A DNA stretch of 42,095 nt, taken from positions 1-42,095 of the forward strand of contig DASYZB010000017.1 in assembly GCA_035946615.1 (NCBI GenBank), written 5' to 3'. The position numbers and the translations under genes are program-made. The stretch comes from Verrucomicrobiia bacterium (GTDB taxonomy: Bacteria > Verrucomicrobiota > Verrucomicrobiia > Limisphaerales > UBA8199). The notes beneath the pieces were generated by a model. It made no database searches. It had not been told where the DNA came from and saw nothing but the letters and a program-made list of their open reading frames with translations. This document shows, in pieces, positions 12,221 through 40,571 of this stretch. Position 1 is the stretch's first letter; each line of letters begins with the position of its first letter.

Positions 12221-12523
12221 AGATTTGTTGTCGCGGATGTTGAAGGGGTCAGGAATTAATTTACGCAAAGGCGGGTAGAAAGCAAATTAAATTGATCAAT
12301 TAAAGTAATCGGTTAGTGACGGCGGGCGCTGCCGCCTAAAGGCGGCGTTCCGCGCGTCCGGAACGCCGGCTTCAGCCGGCAGCCCCGTAGTCACTGAGGC
12401 ATTACCAATTAAATTGATCATCGCAAGCCGCAAACCCCCGAACCGGGGAAGCCATTGATTTGCCAATAGCCTTGTCAGAGTAGCGGCCGGCTAGGTAGGC
12501 TGTGGGGGTTACCTCAGACGAGC
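12221..12523. other. Divergent upstream region of beta-helix gene and GH84 operon
   Basis: This 300-base gap has AT-rich sequence, the palindromic element at 12305-12406 with its flanking 7-bp duplications, and then about 117 bases before the GH84 start. A weak promoter candidate for the operon is TTGTCA (12472-12477), 18 bases, TAGGCT (12496-12501). I see no strong ribosome binding site before the ATG at 12524. Confidence 0.6.
12305..12406 (-). mobile_element. Palindromic mobile element P, copy 1, with 7-bp target duplication
   Basis: The 102-base element is the reverse complement of 40469-40571 with two substitutions and one missing base. It is bordered by perfect direct repeats AATTAAA (12298-12304 and 12407-12413). 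The ends are imperfect inverted repeats (GTAAT...AGTGAC, 12 of 16 bases paired). Inside it folds into three hairpins: GCCGGC-TGAA-GCCGGC, GGCGTTCC-loop-GGAACGCC and GCCGCC-TTTA-GGCGGC, closed by a GC-rich outer stem. No coding capacity; movement would need a transposase supplied from elsewhere. Confidence 0.85.
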
Positions 12524-13939
12524 ATGGCAACGCAACAGACACGCCCTTTGCTGGGGGGAGTCATCGAAGGCTTCTACGGGCAGCCCTGGACCCAGAACGA
12601 GCGTCATGAGCTGTTGGATTGGATGGCCGGTTGGGGTCTGAATACCTATCTCTACGCTCCGAAGGACGATTTGAAGCAGCGAGCGACGTGGAGGGAACTT
12701 TATTCCAAAGAAGAGGCGGAAGCGCTGGGTGTGCTGATCCAAACCTGCCAACAGCGCATGCTTCGCTTTGTCTATGCGCTGAGCCCCGGGCTGGACATCC
12801 AGTACAGTGAGGAAGCCGAATTGGCCCATCTCAAAAGGCGGTTTGAGCAGATGTTCTTATTAGGATGCGGGCACTTTGCTCTGCTCTTCGACGACATCCC
12901 TGAGCGAATGAACGGCGGGGACATCGAGCGGCACGGTTCGCTTGCGTCAGCGCAGTGCCACGTGGCAAACGCCCTGTTCAATTGGGCGCGCGAGCGGTCA
13001 CCTCACGCCGGCCTGTTATTCTGTCCCACTGCCTATTGTGGCCGTATGGCCAAACAGAACCTCGGCGGCCTTGCCTACCTCCCAACCGTTGGCCGCGAGT
13101 TATTGCCTGAAATTGACGTATTCTGGACCGGGCCAGAAATCATCTCGCGCGAGATCACGATCGCTCACATTCGTGAAGTGCAAGCGCTGTTGCGCCGCAA
13201 ACCAGTCATTTGGGACAATCTGCACGCCAATGATTATGATGGCCGCCGGTTTTTCTGTGGTCCTTACGCCGGGCGACGGGTTGAATTGCTTAAAGAGGTC
13301 AGCGGTGTGCTCAGCAATCCAAACAATGAGTTTGCTTTGAACTATGTGCCGCTTCGCACGCTGGCGGGGTTCATGCGCGGCGAAGAATCATGGAGGCCCC
13401 GGCAGGCCTATCGGGAGGCAATGCGAGAGTGGCTGCCCCGTTTTGCGAGCTTCGGTGAGCCTATGAGCCTTGAGGACCTCGTCCTTTTTGGCGACTGCTA
13501 CTACCTGCCACATGAGGAGGGGCCGGAGGCCGAGGCGCTTTATCTGGGCGCGAGAGCTTTGCTCAGCGGCAATTGTGAAAATAGCGCCGGCCAAAGCGCG
13601 ACTTTTCGCCAACGGGCCACTCGGCTGCGGGAGTTCTGCGCCAGGCTGGCCAACATTCGTCATCGCCCGCTATTCTATGCGCTGAGCCGCCGCGCCTGGG
13701 AGCTGCGCGAGGAGTTGGATTTACTCGAACATTACATTGAATTCAAATCAATGACGACGCATGGGGAAGCCTCTTTCCGGTCCGACTTTCATTTGCCGGG
13801 GACGTATCGCGGCGGGCTAGTGGCCCGCCTGCAAGGATTGCTGGCCCAGCACCCCGACGGAGCGTTCGCACCGTCAGTTTTCGGTGGAACCACGCATACC
13901 AGCAGCAAAATGGCGCCCTCGGCGTCTTCGTTACTATGA
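12524..13939 (+). CDS. GH84 beta-N-acetylglucosaminidase, animal OGA-like, with stalk domain
   Basis: 471 residues, no signal peptide, so cytoplasmic. The GH84 barrel (about 8-305) shows GVIEGFYGQPW (12-22), NTYLYAPKDD (40-49), the catalytic aspartate pair D123/D124 in FALLFDDI, LFCPTAYCG (165-173), WTGP (201-204), VIWDNLHANDYD (228-239) and NPNNEFALNY (265-274). These are the substrate-assisted catalysis and GlcNAc-binding motifs of human O-GlcNAcase; from memory they match almost word for word. Residues about 311-445 (EPMSLEDLVL, YYLPHEEGP, a long helical part, YRGGLVARLQ) resemble the stalk domain of the animal enzyme, which many bacterial GH84 enzymes lack. It should remove beta-linked GlcNAc from a glycan or protein. 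The stop overlaps the next gene by 4 bases (ATGA). Confidence 0.92.
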   Translation: MATQQTRPLLGGVIEGFYGQPWTQNERHELLDWMAGWGLNTYLYAPKDDLKQRATWRELYSKEEAEALGVLIQTCQQRMLRFVYALSPGLDIQYSEEAELAHLKRRFEQMFLLGCGHFALLFDDIPERMNGGDIERHGSLASAQCHVANALFNWARERSPHAGLLFCPTAYCGRMAKQNLGGLAYLPTVGRELLPEIDVFWTGPEIISREITIAHIREVQALLRRKPVIWDNLHANDYDGRRFFCGPYAGRRVELLKEVSGVLSNPNNEFALNYVPLRTLAGFMRGEESWRPRQAYREAMREWLPRFASFGEPMSLEDLVLFGDCYYLPHEEGPEAEALYLGARALLSGNCENSAGQSATFRQRATRLREFCARLANIRHRPLFYALSRRAWELREELDLLEHYIEFKSMTTHGEASFRSDFHLPGTYRGGLVARLQGLLAQHPDGAFAPSVFGGTTHTSSKMAPSASSLL

Positions 13940-14589
13940 ACGATTGCACCATTCGGTCCGCTCGGCCTGGCGATGAGCCGGGCGCTTACTATGTTTGCCT
14001 CAAGACAGGAGATTATGGCAAAGACGGCGAGCCCTTTTACCGCGAAGACCCCGATGCGTTGGGCCGCATCTTTGTCGGTCCTTACCTGGCCTACGAGCCG
14101 GAGTTGAGTCTTATCCTCGAAGACGGCCAAGGGATTTGCGGCTACGCCCTCGGCGCTTTGGATTCGCGCGCATTTTACGAGCGTTACGAGGCGGAATGGC
14201 GGCCAGACTTGTGTGCCCGGTTTCCCGTCCCGCAAGGCGATGCGAGCCAGTGGACGCGAGTGCAACAGGTCTATGATTGCTACCATCATCCCGACTATTT
14301 CTGCCCCGAACCTTATGCGGCATGGCCCTCGCATCTGCACATTGACTTGTTAGCGCGCGCGCAGGGGCGCGGCTATGGCCGGCGCATGATGGGCCGGGTG
14401 ATGGACCGACTGCGCAGCCGAGGTTCTCCGGGCGCGCATCTTGGGGTGAGCATGGCCAACATCTCGGCATTCGGTTTCTATCAGCGTTTGGGTTTTCGCG
14501 AGCTGTGCCGCGTCAGCTCCGGGGCGGACGGGTGCATCTATATGGGTAAGAGCTTGCCCGCTGGAAATGGCACGAGCGGCGCGGGTTGA
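13936..14589 (+). CDS. GNAT acetyltransferase resembling the C-terminal domain of animal OGA
   Basis: 217 residues. The start CTIRSARPGDE and the phrase LEDGQGICGYALGALD (61-76) closely resemble the acetyltransferase-like C-terminal domain of human OGA as I recall it. The acetyl-CoA pyrophosphate-binding motif is complete (QGRGYG, 143-148), followed by the GNAT motif FYQRLGF (181-187). The equivalent animal region has lost this motif. The natural acceptor is unknown; an amino sugar or a protein lysine are both open. Translation is coupled to the GH84 gene by ATGA overlap. This is the only ATG/GTG/TTG start in frame, although the frame stays open and codon-like for some 40 codons upstream. Confidence 0.88.
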   Translation: MNDCTIRSARPGDEPGAYYVCLKTGDYGKDGEPFYREDPDALGRIFVGPYLAYEPELSLILEDGQGICGYALGALDSRAFYERYEAEWRPDLCARFPVPQGDASQWTRVQQVYDCYHHPDYFCPEPYAAWPSHLHIDLLARAQGRGYGRRMMGRVMDRLRSRGSPGAHLGVSMANISAFGFYQRLGFRELCRVSSGADGCIYMGKSLPAGNGTSGAG

Positions 14590-14645: not shown

Positions 14646-15905
14646 ATGCCCCGAAAACTCGCACTGCTAGGAGGAAGACCCATTCGCACCCGGTCGTTCA
14701 CGCCCTGGCCACAGTTTGGCAAACATGAAGAAAAGCGACTGCTGCGCGTATTGCGCAGTGGCAAATGGGGCCGCCTGGACGGACGGGAGGTGACCGAGTT
14801 CGAGAGCCGCTTCGCGGCCGCCCATGGTTGCAAGCACGGCATTGGGGTTGCAAACGGAACCGTGTCCTTGCGCGTTGGCCTGCTGGCGGCCGGGCTACGC
14901 GCCGAAGACGAGGTCATTATCCCACCGTACACATTCTTTTCGACGGCGTCAGCGGTCATCGAAGCGAACATGGTCCCTGTTTTTGCGGATATTGATCTGG
15001 ACACGTTCAACCTGGATCCCAGGTCCGTTGAGGCCGCCATCACGCCGCGTACTCGGGCCCTTATGCCTGTCCATTTTGCAGGGCAGGTGGCCGACATGGA
15101 CGCTTTGATGGCGATCGCAAGAAAACGCCGATTGATAGTGATCGAGGACGCCGCGCATGCACACGGAGGCCGCTACAAAAACCTGCCAGCCGGCTCGCTT
15201 GGTCATCTTGCGTCGTTCTCGTTTCAATCGAGCAAGAATCTCACGGCTGGCGAAGGTGGCATCATCACGACGAATGATGACGAATTGGCAGCGACCTGCC
15301 GTTCCATTCATAATTGCGGGCGGGCGCCGGGGGGAGTCTGGTACGAGCACCATGTCATCTCGGGCAATTACCGCCTGGGGGAGTTCCAAGGCGCTGTTCT
15401 CAACTGCCAGCTCGACCGTTTGGAAGCACAAACCAAACGTCGCGAAGCCAACGGCAAATACCTGGCTGCCCGGCTGGCCCGGCTGCCTGGGGTGCATCCG
15501 CAAAAACGTTCGCCCTCCTGCACGCGCCACAGCTACCATCTGTTCATGCTGCGCCTAGAGGGGGAGGCCTTTGGTGCGCCACGTGACGCGCTCGTTCAGG
15601 CGCTGCAGGCCGAAGGCATCCCATGTTCGGGCGGCTACGGCTTTTCGTTGCACCGCCAGCCCTGCTTTCGCAATAAGGCCTTTGGCCCGTTCCTGCCAAA
15701 GGCCGCCGCCCGGCTGGATTATGCTCGGACCCATTGCCCGAACAGCGACTTGATTTGCCTTGAGCAGGGCGTGTGGCTCGAGCAAAGACTCCTCCTGGGG
15801 CCGCGCTCGGATATGGACGATATTGCCGGGGCTTTCGAAAAGATTTTTGAGAATCGTGAGGCTTTGAGCCAATGGTCAATGAAACGCCTGAAGAAAGCTT
15901 CATGA
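14646..15905 (+). CDS. DegT/DnrJ/EryC1/StrS-family aminotransferase
   Basis: 419 residues from ATG 14646 (MPRKLALLGG), preceded by AGAAG. A TTG at 14586 touching the previous stop is an alternative. PLP features: GVANGTVSLR near residue 67-76, IPPYTFFSTASA, the Asp of IEDAAHAHGG that holds the pyridine nitrogen, and the Schiff-base lysine K197 in SFQSSKNLTAGEGG. Family members aminate keto sugars or related carbonyl compounds, using glutamate or glutamine; some act on cyclitols. The substrate is not set by sequence. It sits 56 bases after the GNAT stop and overlaps the permease start by 4 bases (ATGA), so its substrate is probably linked to an amino sugar handled by the operon. Confidence 0.9.
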   Translation: MPRKLALLGGRPIRTRSFTPWPQFGKHEEKRLLRVLRSGKWGRLDGREVTEFESRFAAAHGCKHGIGVANGTVSLRVGLLAAGLRAEDEVIIPPYTFFSTASAVIEANMVPVFADIDLDTFNLDPRSVEAAITPRTRALMPVHFAGQVADMDALMAIARKRRLIVIEDAAHAHGGRYKNLPAGSLGHLASFSFQSSKNLTAGEGGIITTNDDELAATCRSIHNCGRAPGGVWYEHHVISGNYRLGEFQGAVLNCQLDRLEAQTKRREANGKYLAARLARLPGVHPQKRSPSCTRHSYHLFMLRLEGEAFGAPRDALVQALQAEGIPCSGGYGFSLHRQPCFRNKAFGPFLPKAAARLDYARTHCPNSDLICLEQGVWLEQRLLLGPRSDMDDIAGAFEKIFENREALSQWSMKRLKKAS

Positions 15906-17149
15906 ACCCGGCAGAAGGAATGCTCAACCGCCGCATTGTGCCGGCCCTGACGGCACTAAGCGAAAACACCTACTTATCCGCCATCCGCGCGGGGATGGTG
16001 TCGGTCGTGCCGCTGACCATTATCGGGGGCCTGTTCATCATCGTGTCGTATCTGCCGGTAGCCGGCTGGGACAAGCTTGTCGCCCCCTATCTCCAGCTCC
16101 TGCAAATCCCGGTTACTGCCACATTCGGATTGCTTTCGGTCTTTGTGTGTTTTGCCATCGGCTTCGACCTGGGCAAGCAGCTCAAGCAGGAGGCCATGGT
16201 GAGCGCCACAATCGCCACTTTGGTTTTCCTGATGCTGCAGCTCCAGTTGAAGGATTCGGCCCTTAACATGGAGAGCCTCGGCTCCAAGGGCCTGTTCACA
16301 GCGGTCATCATCGCTTTGGTCTCAGTCCGCGTTCAAAAGTTTTTTACCGACAAAAATATGGTGATCAGGCTGCCGGAGAACGTGCCGCCGATTGTCTATG
16401 AATCCTTTTTGTCGCTCAGCCCCTTGTTTTTTCTAGTGCTGGTTTTCTGGCTTATCCGGTTTGTGCTGGGAGTGGATATCGACCACGCGGTGCAAACGGC
16501 GTTTAAGCCGCTGGTGTTCGCCCTCAACACGCTGCCCGGGATTCTGGTGTATGCCTTTCTGGTCACGCTCCTGTGGTCGGTCGGGATTAATGGCGATAAC
16601 GCGATGGACGCGGTTGTCGCCCCCATCTTTCTGCAGTACCTGGCTTTCAATGTGGAAGCGAAGACCCACGGCCAGCCTCTGCCTTTTATCACGGCCTACG
16701 GCTTCTTTACCGCGTTTGTTAATGTGGGTGGAACGGGTGCAACAATCGCCCTGGCACTCGTGATGTGGAACTCGAAGGAACCTGGCTACCGCAAAATCAG
16801 CCGCTTGTCGCTGCCGACTCAAATTTTCCAAATCAACGAGCCGATCTTCTTCGGTTTCCCTATCGTGCTGAATCCTCTCTTCATGATTCCATACATCCTC
16901 AACGCGATGATCCTGACCACGGGCAGCTACCTGCTGATGCATTGGAACGTGATCCACAAGCCCTTTGTCAACGTGCCCTGGACCACACCGCCTATCATCG
17001 GACACTACCTGGTTTCCGGCGGGGACTGGAAAGCAGCGGTCTGGGGAGCCCTCTCGATTGTGATTGCCATGCTGGTTTACCTGCCGTTTGCAAAGGCTGC
17101 CGAACGGCAGCGGTTGAAAGCTGAAGCAACAGGGGTGGCCCGCGAATAG
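15902..17149 (+). CDS. PTS EIIC-type permease, lactose/N,N'-diacetylchitobiose family
   Basis: 415 residues with about ten hydrophobic segments. It matches the ChbC/CelB/LacE family of phosphotransferase IIC membrane domains. Hallmarks are MVSVVPLTIIGGLFII near the N-terminus, the middle LLWSVGINGDNAMD (the family GxHG/GxNG substrate loop) and FQINEPIFFGFPIVLNP. No IIA or IIB partner, HPr or EI is encoded in the window, and the protein ends after the IIC domain. It may therefore work with partners encoded elsewhere, or carry sugar without phosphorylation. The start at 15902 has GAAGAAAG before it and overlaps the aminotransferase stop (ATGA); an ATG at 15872 is the longer choice. It lies next to a GlcNAc-releasing enzyme, so a GlcNAc-containing disaccharide is the natural guess. 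Confidence 0.88.
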   Translation: MNPAEGMLNRRIVPALTALSENTYLSAIRAGMVSVVPLTIIGGLFIIVSYLPVAGWDKLVAPYLQLLQIPVTATFGLLSVFVCFAIGFDLGKQLKQEAMVSATIATLVFLMLQLQLKDSALNMESLGSKGLFTAVIIALVSVRVQKFFTDKNMVIRLPENVPPIVYESFLSLSPLFFLVLVFWLIRFVLGVDIDHAVQTAFKPLVFALNTLPGILVYAFLVTLLWSVGINGDNAMDAVVAPIFLQYLAFNVEAKTHGQPLPFITAYGFFTAFVNVGGTGATIALALVMWNSKEPGYRKISRLSLPTQIFQINEPIFFGFPIVLNPLFMIPYILNAMILTTGSYLLMHWNVIHKPFVNVPWTTPPIIGHYLVSGGDWKAAVWGALSIVIAMLVYLPFAKAAERQRLKAEATGVARE

Positions 17150-20142: not shown

Positions 20143-22536
20143 ATGCAAAGAAATCCTTTTGGTTTAAATTCGCGCCGGAATGGGCATTGGACATGTCTTG
20201 GCGTTTTAATCTGGAGCGCTTTTCAATGGAGCGCCTTGGCTCAGACCCAGCCGTTGGCGTTAACCTTGCGGAGCCTAAAGGAGGTCCAGCCCGGCGCCGG
20301 GCAGTGGCAGGTTAAGGAGTCCAAAGCGCAATGGGACCCGGCGCACACCGCGGCAGTGATCTGTGACATGTGGGACAAACATTGGTGCGAAGGCGCTACT
20401 CAACGCGTTGCCCAAATGGCTCCGCGAATGAACGACGTTCTCCGCGCGCTCAGGGACCGGGGTGTCTTGATCATTCATTGCCCGAGCGACACCATGGAAT
20501 ATTACAAGGACTATCCGGGTCGAAAGCTGGCGCAAGCCGCGCCGAAGGTGGAGTTGGCGCAAATCGAGCAACGCTTCGCCTATCGAATACCAAAGGACAT
20601 TCCCCTCTTGCCCATTGACGACTCCGATGGCGGTTGCACGGACGTTCCTCAAACGAAGGAAAGCAGCCCCTGGCGACACGAGATAGCGACGCTCAAGGTC
20701 GAGGATGGAGATGCGATTACCGACAGCGCGGAGGCCTACTATCTGATGCATCAAAGAGGCATCACCAACGTCATCGTCATGGGTGTTCACGAAAACATGT
20801 GTGTTTTAAACCGCCCCTTCGCCATCAAGCAAATGGTCCGCTTAGGTCAGAATGTGGCGCTCATGCGCGATTTGACCGATACGATGTACGACTCACTGCG
20901 AAAACCTTATGTCGATCACTTTAGCGCCACGGATTTGGTCTGTTGGTATATCGAGAAATACTGGTGCCCCACCATCGCCAGTGACCAGATCATTGGTGGC
21001 AGCCCATTTCGCTTTGCGGCGGACGTGAACCCGCCGCGTGTTTTCCGAAATTATGTCAAACTGCCCGCCACGGACACCCACTGGCAACGCGTGAAAAGTT
21101 ATGTCGAGGACACGCCGCAACCTGATTACACCCAAGCGCCTGCTGCTGCCCGGGAGGCCTTTCGCGACCTGAAATACGGCATACGGATTCATTGGGGCGT
21201 CTATTCCCTCTGGCACACCAATGAATCCTGGCCGTTCCTACGGCTTTCGGATGAAAAGCGCCAGCAGTATCAGGAGCTTTACCGCCAATTCAATCCGGCG
21301 GGGTTCAACGCGAAGGACTGGATGCGGCTTTTCAAGCGCGATGGCATCCGGGTCATGGCCTTTACAACGAAACATCATGACGGGTTTTCAATGTTCGACA
21401 CCCACACGCGCGTCAGAGAACGGGTCAACTGGACAGCGGCAGGGGGACCGAAGATCGAACAATGCGACGTCGCCTACAGTATTATGGAAACGCCGTTCAA
21501 ACGGGATGTGGTCAAGGAACTCTGTGACGCCGCGCATCAGTATGGCATCAAGGTGAGCCTGTACTTCTCGCACCCTGATTGGTACGACGCGGATTTCCGG
21601 CCCTACGCTTTTCATCCAGTCCAGGTCCAAGACGGCTCGAACTACGGCGAAGGGCAGTACGAGCCCAAACAGATTTTGCATCCGCTCTATGCGCCAGACC
21701 CGACGCCCGCCGAGACGGCCCGGATGATGGCCAGGCACCGCCAGCAGTTGGCGGAATTGCTGACGTGCTATGGGCAAATCGACATGATTTCGCTGGACCA
21801 GTGGCTGGGGCCGCCTGTCTGGCCGCAGTCGAGGGCGACAATGAAATACCTGCGGCGCCTTCAACCCAACGTGATGTTCCGCGCCCGTGGCATTGGCAAT
21901 TACGGGGACTATTACACGCCGGAAGGATTCGTGCCCGGTTCCAAGGAAAACACTACGATGCCCTGGATGGTCATCTATCAACTCGGCGGAATGTGGAGCT
22001 ACCAACCGGACAGCAGCAAGTACCACGACGGGGCCTGGATCATTCGGAACCTGGTGGATATCGTTGCCAAAGGCGGCAATTTTATGGTCGGCATCGGGCC
22101 GGATGAAAACGGAGAATTTCATCCAAAAGCGATTGAGGCTCTCGATGAAGCAGGAGATTGGCTAAGGGTTAACGGCGAGGCTATCTACGGGACACGGCCC
22201 AGGCCAGGACTTCGTTGGAAGGAGGGAGACACGATTCGATTCACCCGCACCAAAGATAATCGCTTTATTTATGTCCTGGCCCTTGGCTGGCCTGGGAGAC
22301 AGATGGTGCTCACATCCGTCCATGCGCGGGCACGTTCGCAAATCATTCTCCTTGGTGAAAAGCAGCCAATCAAATGGCACGAAACAGAAAGCTCGGGCCT
22401 GGTAATGGAGATTCCCGAGCGGTTGCAAGAGCCCAGCAACCGCCCCTGCCGTGATGTCTATGCGTTCAGGGTTGAATCGGCTGAGCAACCATCATCACAA
22501 GCCGGTCTGAGACAATCCAACGATGTACTGTGGTGA
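20143..22536 (+). CDS. Exported fusion of isochorismatase-like hydrolase and GH29 alpha-L-fucosidase-like domain
   Basis: 797 residues. Signal peptide about 12-34 (ending ALAQTQ). Residues 65-275 are an isochorismatase-like cysteine hydrolase with D75 (AVICDMWDKHW) and nucleophile C220 (VMGVHENMCVLNRP). Residues 343-700 are a GH29-type barrel: KYGIRIHWGVYS (344-355), TKHHDGFSMFD (409-419), SLYFSHPDW and the likely nucleophile D552 in IDMISLDQW. A beta-rich tail follows. GH29 enzymes release alpha-L-fucose; the cysteine-hydrolase part would act on an amide or ester. Such a fusion is unusual, and both active sites look intact. The start ATG has AGAGA before it. The 3' end overlaps the converging hydrolase gene by 42 bases. 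Confidence 0.85.
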   Translation: MQRNPFGLNSRRNGHWTCLGVLIWSAFQWSALAQTQPLALTLRSLKEVQPGAGQWQVKESKAQWDPAHTAAVICDMWDKHWCEGATQRVAQMAPRMNDVLRALRDRGVLIIHCPSDTMEYYKDYPGRKLAQAAPKVELAQIEQRFAYRIPKDIPLLPIDDSDGGCTDVPQTKESSPWRHEIATLKVEDGDAITDSAEAYYLMHQRGITNVIVMGVHENMCVLNRPFAIKQMVRLGQNVALMRDLTDTMYDSLRKPYVDHFSATDLVCWYIEKYWCPTIASDQIIGGSPFRFAADVNPPRVFRNYVKLPATDTHWQRVKSYVEDTPQPDYTQAPAAAREAFRDLKYGIRIHWGVYSLWHTNESWPFLRLSDEKRQQYQELYRQFNPAGFNAKDWMRLFKRDGIRVMAFTTKHHDGFSMFDTHTRVRERVNWTAAGGPKIEQCDVAYSIMETPFKRDVVKELCDAAHQYGIKVSLYFSHPDWYDADFRPYAFHPVQVQDGSNYGEGQYEPKQILHPLYAPDPTPAETARMMARHRQQLAELLTCYGQIDMISLDQWLGPPVWPQSRATMKYLRRLQPNVMFRARGIGNYGDYYTPEGFVPGSKENTTMPWMVIYQLGGMWSYQPDSSKYHDGAWIIRNLVDIVAKGGNFMVGIGPDENGEFHPKAIEALDEAGDWLRVNGEAIYGTRPRPGLRWKEGDTIRFTRTKDNRFIYVLALGWPGRQMVLTSVHARARSQIILLGEKQPIKWHETESSGLVMEIPERLQEPSNRPCRDVYAFRVESAEQPSSQAGLRQSNDVLW

Positions 22537-40468: not shown

Positions 40469-40571
40469 GGTAATGCCTCAGTGACTGCGGGGCTGCCGGC
40501 TGAAGCCGGCGTTCCGGACGCGTGGAACGCCGCCTTTAGGCGGCAGCGCCCCGCCGTCACTAACCGATTAC
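40469..40571 (+). mobile_element. Palindromic mobile element P, copy 2, with 7-bp target duplication
   Basis: 103 bases, bordered by perfect direct repeats CCTCCAT (40462-40468 and 40572-40578). Internal hairpins: 40495-40510 (GCCGGC-TGAA-GCCGGC), 40508-40531 (GGCGTTCC...GGAACGCC) and 40529-40544 (GCCGCC-TTTA-GGCGGC). They are enclosed by GCGGGG...CCCCGC and AGTGAC...GTCACT stems. It is nearly identical to copy 1 in reverse, 28 kb away. The different duplicated target words show two separate insertions. Confidence 0.85.

Follow-up and report, generated by a model that had tools for sequence, protein, structure and literature searches.

In animals, O-GlcNAcase (OGA; human 5m7r and 9qen, Trichoplax 9qep) is a single chain in which a GH84 catalytic domain with its active-site residues kept is followed by a stalk and a GNAT-fold domain. 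The animal pseudo-acetyltransferase (pHAT) domains tested do not bind acetyl-CoA, according to PMC12494797. A split form of this architecture is already known from bacteria: in 2013, Rao et al. described the adjacent OgOGA and OgpAT genes of Oceanicola granulosus (PDB 2xsa and 3zj0) and their likeness to human OGA (PMC3814719). Here we analyse a 42,095-nucleotide stretch of a Verrucomicrobiia genome (contig DASYZB010000017.1; hereafter, the window), in which positions 12524–14589 encode a GH84–stalk protein and a GNAT protein in the same order as OgOGA and OgpAT. All features below lie on the + strand.

The overlapping gene pair and its predicted products

A sequence-only reading of the window had proposed an O-GlcNAcase split into two overlapping genes. 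Both open reading frames and the 4-bp overlap were found in the sequence, and every motif listed in that reading is present in the translations. The first gene (12524–13939) encodes a protein of 471 amino acids, P0001, in which no signal peptide was seen on inspection by eye, and the second (13936–14589) encodes a protein of 217 amino acids, P0002. Their start and stop overlap as ATGA (13936–13939), with the GNAT start codon ATG at 13936 falling within the GH84 stop region, and the two proteins are probably co-translated. Unlike the single chain of animal-type OGA, the window thus holds two genes, separated by the TGA at 13937–13939.

P0001 scores 271 bits against the Pfam NAGidase model, and its top PDB match is human OGA (9ba8, E 1.7e-110). 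The predicted TIM-barrel domain (residues 9–308; 12548–13447; PF07555) aligns with residues 7–308 of human OGA in phmmer (i-E 2.5e-95) and contains Asp123-Asp124 (12890–12895), the counterpart of the human catalytic pair Asp174-Asp175, which is invariant across the 38 rows of our GH84 alignment. The sequence-only reading had staked its case on a stalk in residues 311–445 (13454–13858), and this region is indeed alignable: residues 311–441 match the OGA stalk as a separate hit in 9ba8 (i-E 5e-12) and match the isolated stalk chain 5uhk_B (E 2e-14). An AlphaFold2 model (pLDDT 89.8) superposes on human OGA 5tke over residues 8–460 (Z 47.5, rmsd 2.3, 405 residues) and on OgOGA 2xsb (Z 45.9). By sequence and modelled fold, P0001 is a predicted member of the OGA subtype, with an Asp-Asp catalytic domain and an alignable helical stalk.

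The best PDB sequence matches of P0002 are OgpAT (3zj0, E 3e-44) and SsAT (4bmh, 1e-37). Against OGA C-terminal domains it reached 2e-25 (Trichoplax OGA pHAT, 6r45) and 1e-22 (human OGA), versus only 1e-4 for the best GNAT outside the OGA-type family. Structure comparison ranked the candidates in the same way, with Z scores of 30.3 for 3zj0, 27.4 for 4bmh and 25.1 for 6r45, and 19.1 for the next GNAT. The proposed likeness to the OGA acetyltransferase-like domain is therefore borne out in sequence and fold, P0002 being no closer to unrelated GNAT families, and these matches rule out an unrelated GNAT that merely neighbours the GH84 gene. The model matches at full length, and P0002 aligns to 3zj0 through both family insertions of the first half (OgpAT residues 27–41 and 78–125), the first of them interrupted by a single-residue gap. 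The acetyl-CoA P-loop pattern [Q/R]xxGx[G/A] is present as QGRGYG at residues 143–148 (14362–14379), with numbering identical to that of OgpAT, whose P-loop is likewise intact, and Asn175 is present too. Acetyl-CoA binding is expected from this loop, and P0002 is a separate, probably active GNAT partner of the GH84 enzyme. Sequence and predicted fold thus support a split version of the animal order: a putative GH84 O-GlcNAcase with an OGA stalk, paired with a GNAT whose family is that of the OGA C-terminal domain.

Gene neighbourhood and candidate functions

Two further genes follow the pair. The first encodes a DegT/DnrJ/EryC1/StrS sugar aminotransferase (14646–15905; Pfam 336 bits; longest frame from TTG 14586), with PDB matches to AHBA synthase and to perosamine and inosose aminotransferases. 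The second encodes an EIIC-like transporter of the lactose/cellobiose family (15902–17149; Pfam 150 bits; longest frame from ATG 15872) that matches PDB 3qnq (E 1.4e-65); the EIIB partner of lactose/cellobiose PTS (PF02302) had no match in the window genome. Both genes are recurring neighbours. Of 71 order- and phylum-level loci, 24 have EIIC within about 7 kb, 17 DegT, 12 SIS and 8 BadF, which is GlcNAc-kinase-like but below the NCBIfam cut-off. EIIC adjoined 16 of 30 named OGA-type GH84 loci with a GNAT versus none of 40 lower-ranked GH84 loci (L158–L197; Fisher 6e-8), a control set that includes L181, itself OGA-type with a GNAT. SIS and BadF also lay near control loci (5 and 3 of 40, respectively), which leaves just EIIC and DegT looking specific. 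The GH84–GNAT pair recurs in a cassette with the DegT aminotransferase and the EIIC-like transporter, in Planctomycetes too.

GNATs of the main family also occur without GH84 in the examined region (n = 20), with EIIC near 7 and SIS near 7; others adjoin a KDPG aldolase or a glycoside-3-dehydrogenase-like gene, and two from planctomycetes adjoin DegT and a GH20 hexosaminidase. Among eight divergent GNAT relatives (L108–L115), a PIG-L de-N-acetylase adjoins three and is missing beside the other five. The window genome itself has a divergent paralogue, and the neighbour cluster beside it, c9, matched no PDB entry and, at the thresholds used, neither a Pfam nor an NCBIfam model. Neighbour cluster c3, antiparallel to and over the GNAT gene in the loci compared, was taken as an antisense artefact.

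We give about even chances to a model in which the pair, as an OGA-type β-N-acetylglucosaminidase and its GNAT, processes an amino-sugar glycoside taken up from outside. Import would fall to the EIIC-like protein; in the cytoplasm, the GNAT would N-acetylate a free 2-amino group using acetyl-CoA, and the GH84 enzyme, whose mechanism needs a 2-acetamido group, would then free GlcNAc. In sister cassettes, the GlcNAc-kinase-like protein and the SIS sugar isomerase would take GlcNAc onward, and the DegT enzyme may add amino groups to the sugar or remove them. Our data show homology, predicted fold, intact catalytic and acetyl-CoA motifs and recurring neighbours, and we infer the acceptor, the step order and the cytoplasmic site; the literature cited here yielded, in the text available, no reported acceptor for any member of the OGA-type GNAT family. 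In the judgement of He et al., a small polar molecule would fit the acceptor pocket of SsAT (PMC3919268). In the fungal protein RmNag, cleavage of (GlcN)2 by the fused hexosaminidase is reported to depend on a GNAT region that acetylates GlcN and chitosan oligomers (PMC4680927); this GNAT is absent among the 50 structural matches listed for P0002, which settles nothing on kinship. Other points count against the model. In 10 of 40 named OGA-type loci the examined stretch holds no GNAT, although four of these (L142, L146, L153 and L157) end at or soon after GH84, leaving six informative; and a purely catabolic route leaves DegT without a clear role.

DegT and GNAT are a usual pairing in the synthesis of N-acetylated amino sugars, and the cassette could instead be biosynthetic, with DegT making an amino sugar, the GNAT acetylating it and GH84 trimming or recycling the product. 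The best NCBIfam matches of the DegT protein, the ArnB- and PseC-type models, are consistent with such a role, albeit below their cut-offs, as are the GNAT–DegT pairs without GH84 at L241 and L242. However, the EIIC, GlcNAc-kinase-like and SIS genes suggest uptake and catabolism, and the annotated neighbour clusters besides DegT include no nucleotide-sugar or glycosyltransferase family (c10 and c14 are not settled; c9 and c17 are matchless). On balance we regard biosynthesis as unlikely, albeit the strongest competitor of the glycoside-processing model.

More doubtful still is a bacterial protein O-GlcNAc eraser, in which GH84 would strip protein O-GlcNAc as in animals and the GNAT would regulate GH84. 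The strong resemblance of P0001 to human OGA, stalk and active site included, speaks for it, but the neighbours are sugar genes, and the GT41 O-GlcNAc transferase (OGT) that we looked for as the mark of protein O-GlcNAc cycling had no match in the window genome, which is 96% complete. GT41 occurs in 11 of 146 genomes of the order; 8 of these 11 are also in the GNAT list, a co-occurrence that, for those genomes, speaks mildly for a connection with protein O-GlcNAc. GH84 and GT41 also occur together in Thermobaculum, but its O-GlcNAc proteins are apparently absent according to the authors (PMC4683255).

We consider it very unlikely that the GNAT acetylates proteins, as a histone-type or N-terminal acetyltransferase whose operon with GH84 is a matter of chance or of regulation. 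Its fold is that of a GNAT, the structural matches that come next include Nat-type enzymes (Z up to 17.6), and fungal Ngs1 is described as linking histone acetylation to a GH3 domain that binds GlcNAc (PMC5063960). Against this, a modelled peptide acceptor clashes with the tunnel-like pocket that a family insertion shapes in SsAT, although the authors do not exclude peptides (PMC3919268), and the GNAT is repeatedly coupled with GH84, and also with GH20 and sugar genes.

Split and fused forms in bacteria and animals

The GH84–GNAT pair is common in the verrucomicrobial order of the window. Our 71 order- and phylum-level loci included 39 adjacent pairs, one pair 818 nt apart and one fusion, and a further set of 80 named loci, overlapping the first in some loci (for example, L059 and L121), held 28 adjacent pairs. 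This recurrence rules out a chance overlap of the two genes. With GNAT starts guessed, the commonest spacing was −4, found in 14 of the 39 adjacent pairs of the first set and in 15 of the 28 of the second. Single-chain GH84–GNAT fusions were found in one verrucomicrobial genome (L066) and six planctomycete genomes; L141, a fusion by its open-frame figure, was rejected for its two in-frame stops between the genes.

Trees were built leaving out loci with incomplete domains and rows more than 80–82% identical. In a first GH84 tree, which kept 14 outgroup rows, all 66 bacterial OGA-type rows together form the sister group of the animal rows, and in a second the animals fall among a few bacterial split or GNAT-less rows (SH-aLRT 93). 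In the GNAT tree, SsAT falls outside the other 67 main-family rows, and the animal branches are very long, making their placement there unsure. Animals lie outside the clade of the window in the GH84 trees and the GNAT tree, excluding the window pair as the direct ancestor of the animal gene, and in both GH84 trees and the GNAT tree the bacterial fused rows are nested inside split rows. AU tests including L157, a contig-end fragment inside the planctomycete fused clade, did not reject the planctomycete fusions and L066 as one clade (p 0.18), but rejected the planctomycete fusions with animals (p 0.027) and all fusions together (p 0.015). Bacterial and animal fusions as one group are therefore rejected (AU p 0.015–0.027). 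We set aside the tests without L157, in which p was 0.0004 with four fused rows, 0.064 with the two bacterial ones and, on the second tree, 1e-16.

These results qualify the earlier suggestion that the pair represents the state before fusion or a later fission: the split form is the common one among the bacteria sampled, but the animal gene has closer relatives than the window pair, and bacteria made fusions of their own. Because the split is the common form in the sampled bacteria, fission of an animal-like protein is unlikely. That an older fused OGA broke apart to give the split pair is the least probable reading of all, for although fused forms occur in two bacterial phyla and one GH84 tree places animals as sister to every bacterial OGA-type row, the bacterial fusions sit within split rows, the second GH84 tree puts animals too among split or GNAT-less rows, and GNATs that lack an adjacent GH84 are common (30 of 71 loci).

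Comparison with known systems

Human OGA keeps 21 of 37 family-conserved residues in positions 1–127 versus 9 of 26 in 128–207. We tentatively suggest, with somewhat less confidence than in the glycoside-processing model, that the pseudo-acetyltransferase tail of animal OGA derives from a bacterial amino-sugar N-acetyltransferase that re-acetylated glucosamine-type substrates for a partner hexosaminidase, that the bacterial fusions in planctomycetes and one verrucomicrobial genome arose separately from the animal one, and that the acetyl-CoA half decayed in animals, the other half being better preserved. On this view, the animal pHAT would descend from such an enzyme and be dead. The intact acetyl-CoA site, the recurring sugar-gene setting and the split and fused forms together offer an experimental route to the acceptor of the live enzyme and then to the ligand of the dead animal domain. 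The sequence-only reading had valued the pair as a model for that domain; it is usable as such with care, because the bacterial GNAT retains an acetyl-CoA loop that animals have lost. The natural fusions provide single chains with an intact loop for studying how the third domain packs.

OgOGA and OgpAT come from another organism, and DegT and EIIC neighbours are not described in the available text of PMC3814719. No title or abstract among the matches listed for open-licence PMC, preprints aside, described bacterial GH84–GNAT fusions or the DegT/EIIC cassette; we did not find these, or the commonness of the pair in the order, in print. SsAT of Streptomyces sviceus belongs to the same GNAT family as P0002 and is described as an acetyl-CoA binder (4bmh; PMC3919268). 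Thermobaculum TtOGA resembles P0001 in its GH84 domain and helical bundle but differs from the window in being reported without a GNAT domain and alongside a GT41 OGT (5diy; PMC4683255). RmNag, like the proposed model, combines an N-acetyltransferase with a β-N-acetylglucosaminidase (PMC4680927), but its hexosaminidase, fused to the glucosamine N-acetyltransferase, is of family GH3, not GH84, making this a comparison by function.

The gene pair and its animal counterparts

Both open reading frames lie where the sequence-only reading placed them: the GH84 O-GlcNAcase gene (P0001, 12524-13939, 471 aa) and the GNAT gene (P0002, 13936-14589, 217 aa) are on the same strand and share an ATGA at the end of the first and the start of the second. 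P0001, the single GH84 match in the window genome (161 contigs, 96% complete), matches human OGA with an E value of 1.7e-110. Its residues 311-441 match the OGA stalk on their own, and an AlphaFold 2 model (pLDDT 89.8, 38-row alignment) aligns to human OGA across residues 8-460 (Z 47.5), bearing out the proposed stalk likeness of the C-terminal region. The claim that P0002 is nearer to OGA C-terminal domains than to other GNATs also held: it matches the acetyltransferases of Oceanicola granulosus (OgpAT, 3e-44) and Streptomyces sviceus (SsAT, 1e-37), the Trichoplax pHAT domain (2e-25) and human OGA (1e-22), versus only 1e-4 for the best GNAT outside the OGA-type family. Its model (pLDDT 96.2, 46-row alignment) agrees, with Z scores of 30.3 for OgpAT (3zj0), 27.4 for SsAT (4bmh), 25.1 for an animal pHAT domain (6r45) and 19.1 for the next GNAT, so that structure prediction of each protein singly is in line with the sequence matches.

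P0001 retains the catalytic pair Asp123-Asp124 (human 174-175) and, by alignment, the residues at human G67, K98, Y219, W278, N280, D285 and N313, which we take to be active-site positions. In P0002, the loop Q143-G-R-G-Y-G148, I136-D137 and N175 have numbering identical to that of OgpAT. Conserved residues defined over 28 bacterial GNAT rows number 37 in positions 1-127 and 26 in positions 128-207; OgpAT keeps 30 and 22 of these, SsAT 23 and 19, human OGA 21 and 9, and Trichoplax 21 and 6, its fragment ending early so that 3 of its 20 losses in the second half are end gaps. These counts by half indicate that decay in animals is concentrated in the acetyl-CoA half. The OgpAT structure was solved with acetyl-CoA, and the human domain was reported not to bind it (PMC3814719); a 2025 Trichoplax and human study, with the Oceanicola protein as positive control, describes acetyl-CoA binding as lost in the animal domains tested (PMC12494797).

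Distribution and genomic setting

GNAT matches occur in 17 of the 40 nearest genomes at E <1e-58 (23 at 1e-3), in 89 of 196 genomes of the order (E up to 1e-12) and in 5 of 288 genomes from a phylum-wide sample, the window's own included and the other four weak. From 104 order and phylum match rows we took 71 regions (L047-L117), those left out being mostly short contigs and fragments. GH84 lies directly upstream of GNAT on the same strand in 39, 818 nt away in one (L059) and fused to it in one; the remaining 30 have GNAT without GH84 in the region fetched, some regions stopping at contig ends, and 10 of these are divergent or fragmentary (L108-L117). The window genome itself carries a second, divergent GNAT of the family (L111:6966-7727, contig C40, 51 bits). 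For the gene 3′ of it, searches of Pfam, NCBIfam and PDB at the chosen thresholds were all negative, and the same two neighbours are present in L108-L110. A scan of named genomes used a GH84 alignment headed by Trichoplax, and the best 80 of its 587 matches were taken: 28 adjacent pairs, one fusion, three with the genes apart on one strand, one with them on opposite strands and 47 without GNAT within the stretch examined. Adjacent pairs occur mostly in Verrucomicrobiota, and also in Planctomycetota, one Trueperaceae MAG and one Acidobacteria MAG.

Downstream of the pair, the window encodes a DegT sugar aminotransferase (14646-15905) and an EIIC-like transporter that, if its second ATG is the start, spans 15902-17149 and overlaps DegT by 4 bp. 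Neighbour clustering across the 71 loci returned EIIC at 24, DegT at 17, SIS sugar isomerase at 12 and BadF at 8; the nearest NCBIfam model to the BadF protein is GlcNAc kinase (52 bits against a cut-off of 370). The order GH84-GNAT-DegT-EIIC recurs in planctomycetes (L236, L238), and the fused gene of L233 is followed by EIIC. In the named set, EIIC lies close to 16 of the 30 OGA-type GH84 genes that have a GNAT, 0 of the 10 OGA-type genes without it (L142, L146, L153 and L157 ending at or soon after GH84) and 0 of 40 lower-ranked loci (L158-L197, among them L181, which is OGA-type with GNAT), an enrichment of the 30 over the 40 with a Fisher value of 6e-8. SIS and kinase neighbours are not specific, since they also lie near 5 and 3 of the 40 lower-ranked loci.

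Of the 20 main-family GNATs whose region showed no GH84, seven have EIIC nearby and seven SIS. A KDPG aldolase cluster lies next to the GNAT in L097, L099 and L102, and a glycoside-3-dehydrogenase-like cluster in L085 and L086 (identified from one member each, the second below its cut-off), and planctomycetes L241 and L242 have DegT on one side of GNAT and a GH20 hexosaminidase on the other. A GH20-like gene (L114:8197-9819) likewise lies near a divergent GNAT in G163. A PIG-L de-N-acetylase gene adjoins three of the eight divergent relatives L108-L115 (L112, L113 and L115; Pfam on two of the three) and none of the other five. Four GNAT loci have a nearby sulfatase whose C-terminal domain is of the N-sulphoglucosamine sulphohydrolase type (L079:9155-10513, L049:11495-13012, L065:248-1591, L235:3606-5066); the action of such an enzyme could generate free GlcN groups. 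In the window, an alpha-L-fucosidase gene (20143-22536) follows the cassette at a distance of 3 kb, and a palindromic repeat (pattern: 4 matches versus 0.01 expected) occurs twice in opposite orientation, at 12331-12380, upstream of the GH84 gene, and 40495-40544.

Bacterial fusions

G024, a genome of the window's order, encodes GH84, stalk and GNAT in a single 699-aa chain that matches human OGA over its whole length (439 bits). Its four family-mates showed no fusion, one of them (G415) being cut off inside the GH84 gene. Because an in-frame GTG lies at the junction, G024 may also yield a separate GNAT product. The genes are fused in L155, a Planctomycetia MAG, as well, and there the part of the junction inspected contains no start codon in frame. 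In its order, 15 of 246 genomes match. Apart from G636, whose match is a fragment of GH84 where the contig ends (L221), six loci are fused by ORFs (L155, L213, L231-L234), four are adjacent pairs (L235-L238), G677 carries GH84 and GNAT on separate contigs, and the regions taken for L241-L243 contain GNAT only. The loop [Q/R]xxGx[G/A] fits six of the seven bacterial fusions; the exception is L231, in which serine replaces P-loop G146, a change that may mark an early stage of the loss that animals show.

The GH84 tree unites the six planctomycete fusions with fragment L157 (SH-aLRT 97) and places animals and G024 outside this group; the trees are quick ones with two animal sequences only, whose placement differs between two trees. 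AU tests gave p 0.015 for all fusions as one clade, 0.027 for planctomycete fusions with animals and 0.18 for planctomycete fusions with G024. These values therefore favour two or more independent fusion events, one in animals and at least one in bacteria, and the bacterial fusions may have had one origin or two. In six distinct split pairs (L075, L087, L092, L131, L235, L237) the genes share a reading frame and a single stop codon parts them; it seems that little is needed to pass between the split and the fused form. Two other open frames end in GNAT: one of 814 aa in a Spirochaetales MAG (L191:4408-6849), with about 600 residues without a Pfam match before a divergent OGA-type GNAT and about 0.7 kb upstream of a GH84 frame, and a putative planctomycete fusion of 627 aa (L243:1191-3071) without a Pfam match at 1e-5.

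A possible role and relation to known systems

Protein O-GlcNAc cycling is unlikely as a general role of the pair, because GT41, the OGT family, had no match in the window genome and occurs in 11 of 146 genomes in the order. Eight of those 11 are also on the order's GNAT match list, and a link to protein O-GlcNAc may exist in some lineages. The sugar-gene setting is consistent with re-acetylation of amino sugars. Catalysis by human OGA uses the substrate's own 2-acetamido group (PMC10636738), and a sugar without its N-acetyl group would therefore be expected to resist cleavage; the GNAT partner would restore the acetyl group on such a sugar, the putative acceptor, and GH84 could then cut it. 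This principle has been demonstrated in the fungal GH3 hexosaminidase RmNag: its fused GNAT region acetylates substrates from GlcN up to (GlcN)5, cleavage of (GlcN)2 depends on that region, and the authors liken the layout to OGA (PMC4680927). The SsAT pocket was judged suited to a small polar molecule, peptides still being allowed (PMC3919268).

Literature searches did not find the cassette, the bacterial fusions or the amino-sugar hypothesis in print. An acetyltransferase gene directly 3′ of OgOGA was reported in Oceanicola granulosus, where the likeness of this layout to the human domain order was already pointed out (Rao et al. 2013, PMC3814719). The observation in the window is therefore sound but concerns a gene pair of an already known kind, and it is through the wider picture of cassette, bacterial fusions and amino-sugar hypothesis that ideas on how the OGA pHAT domain arose can be put to the test.
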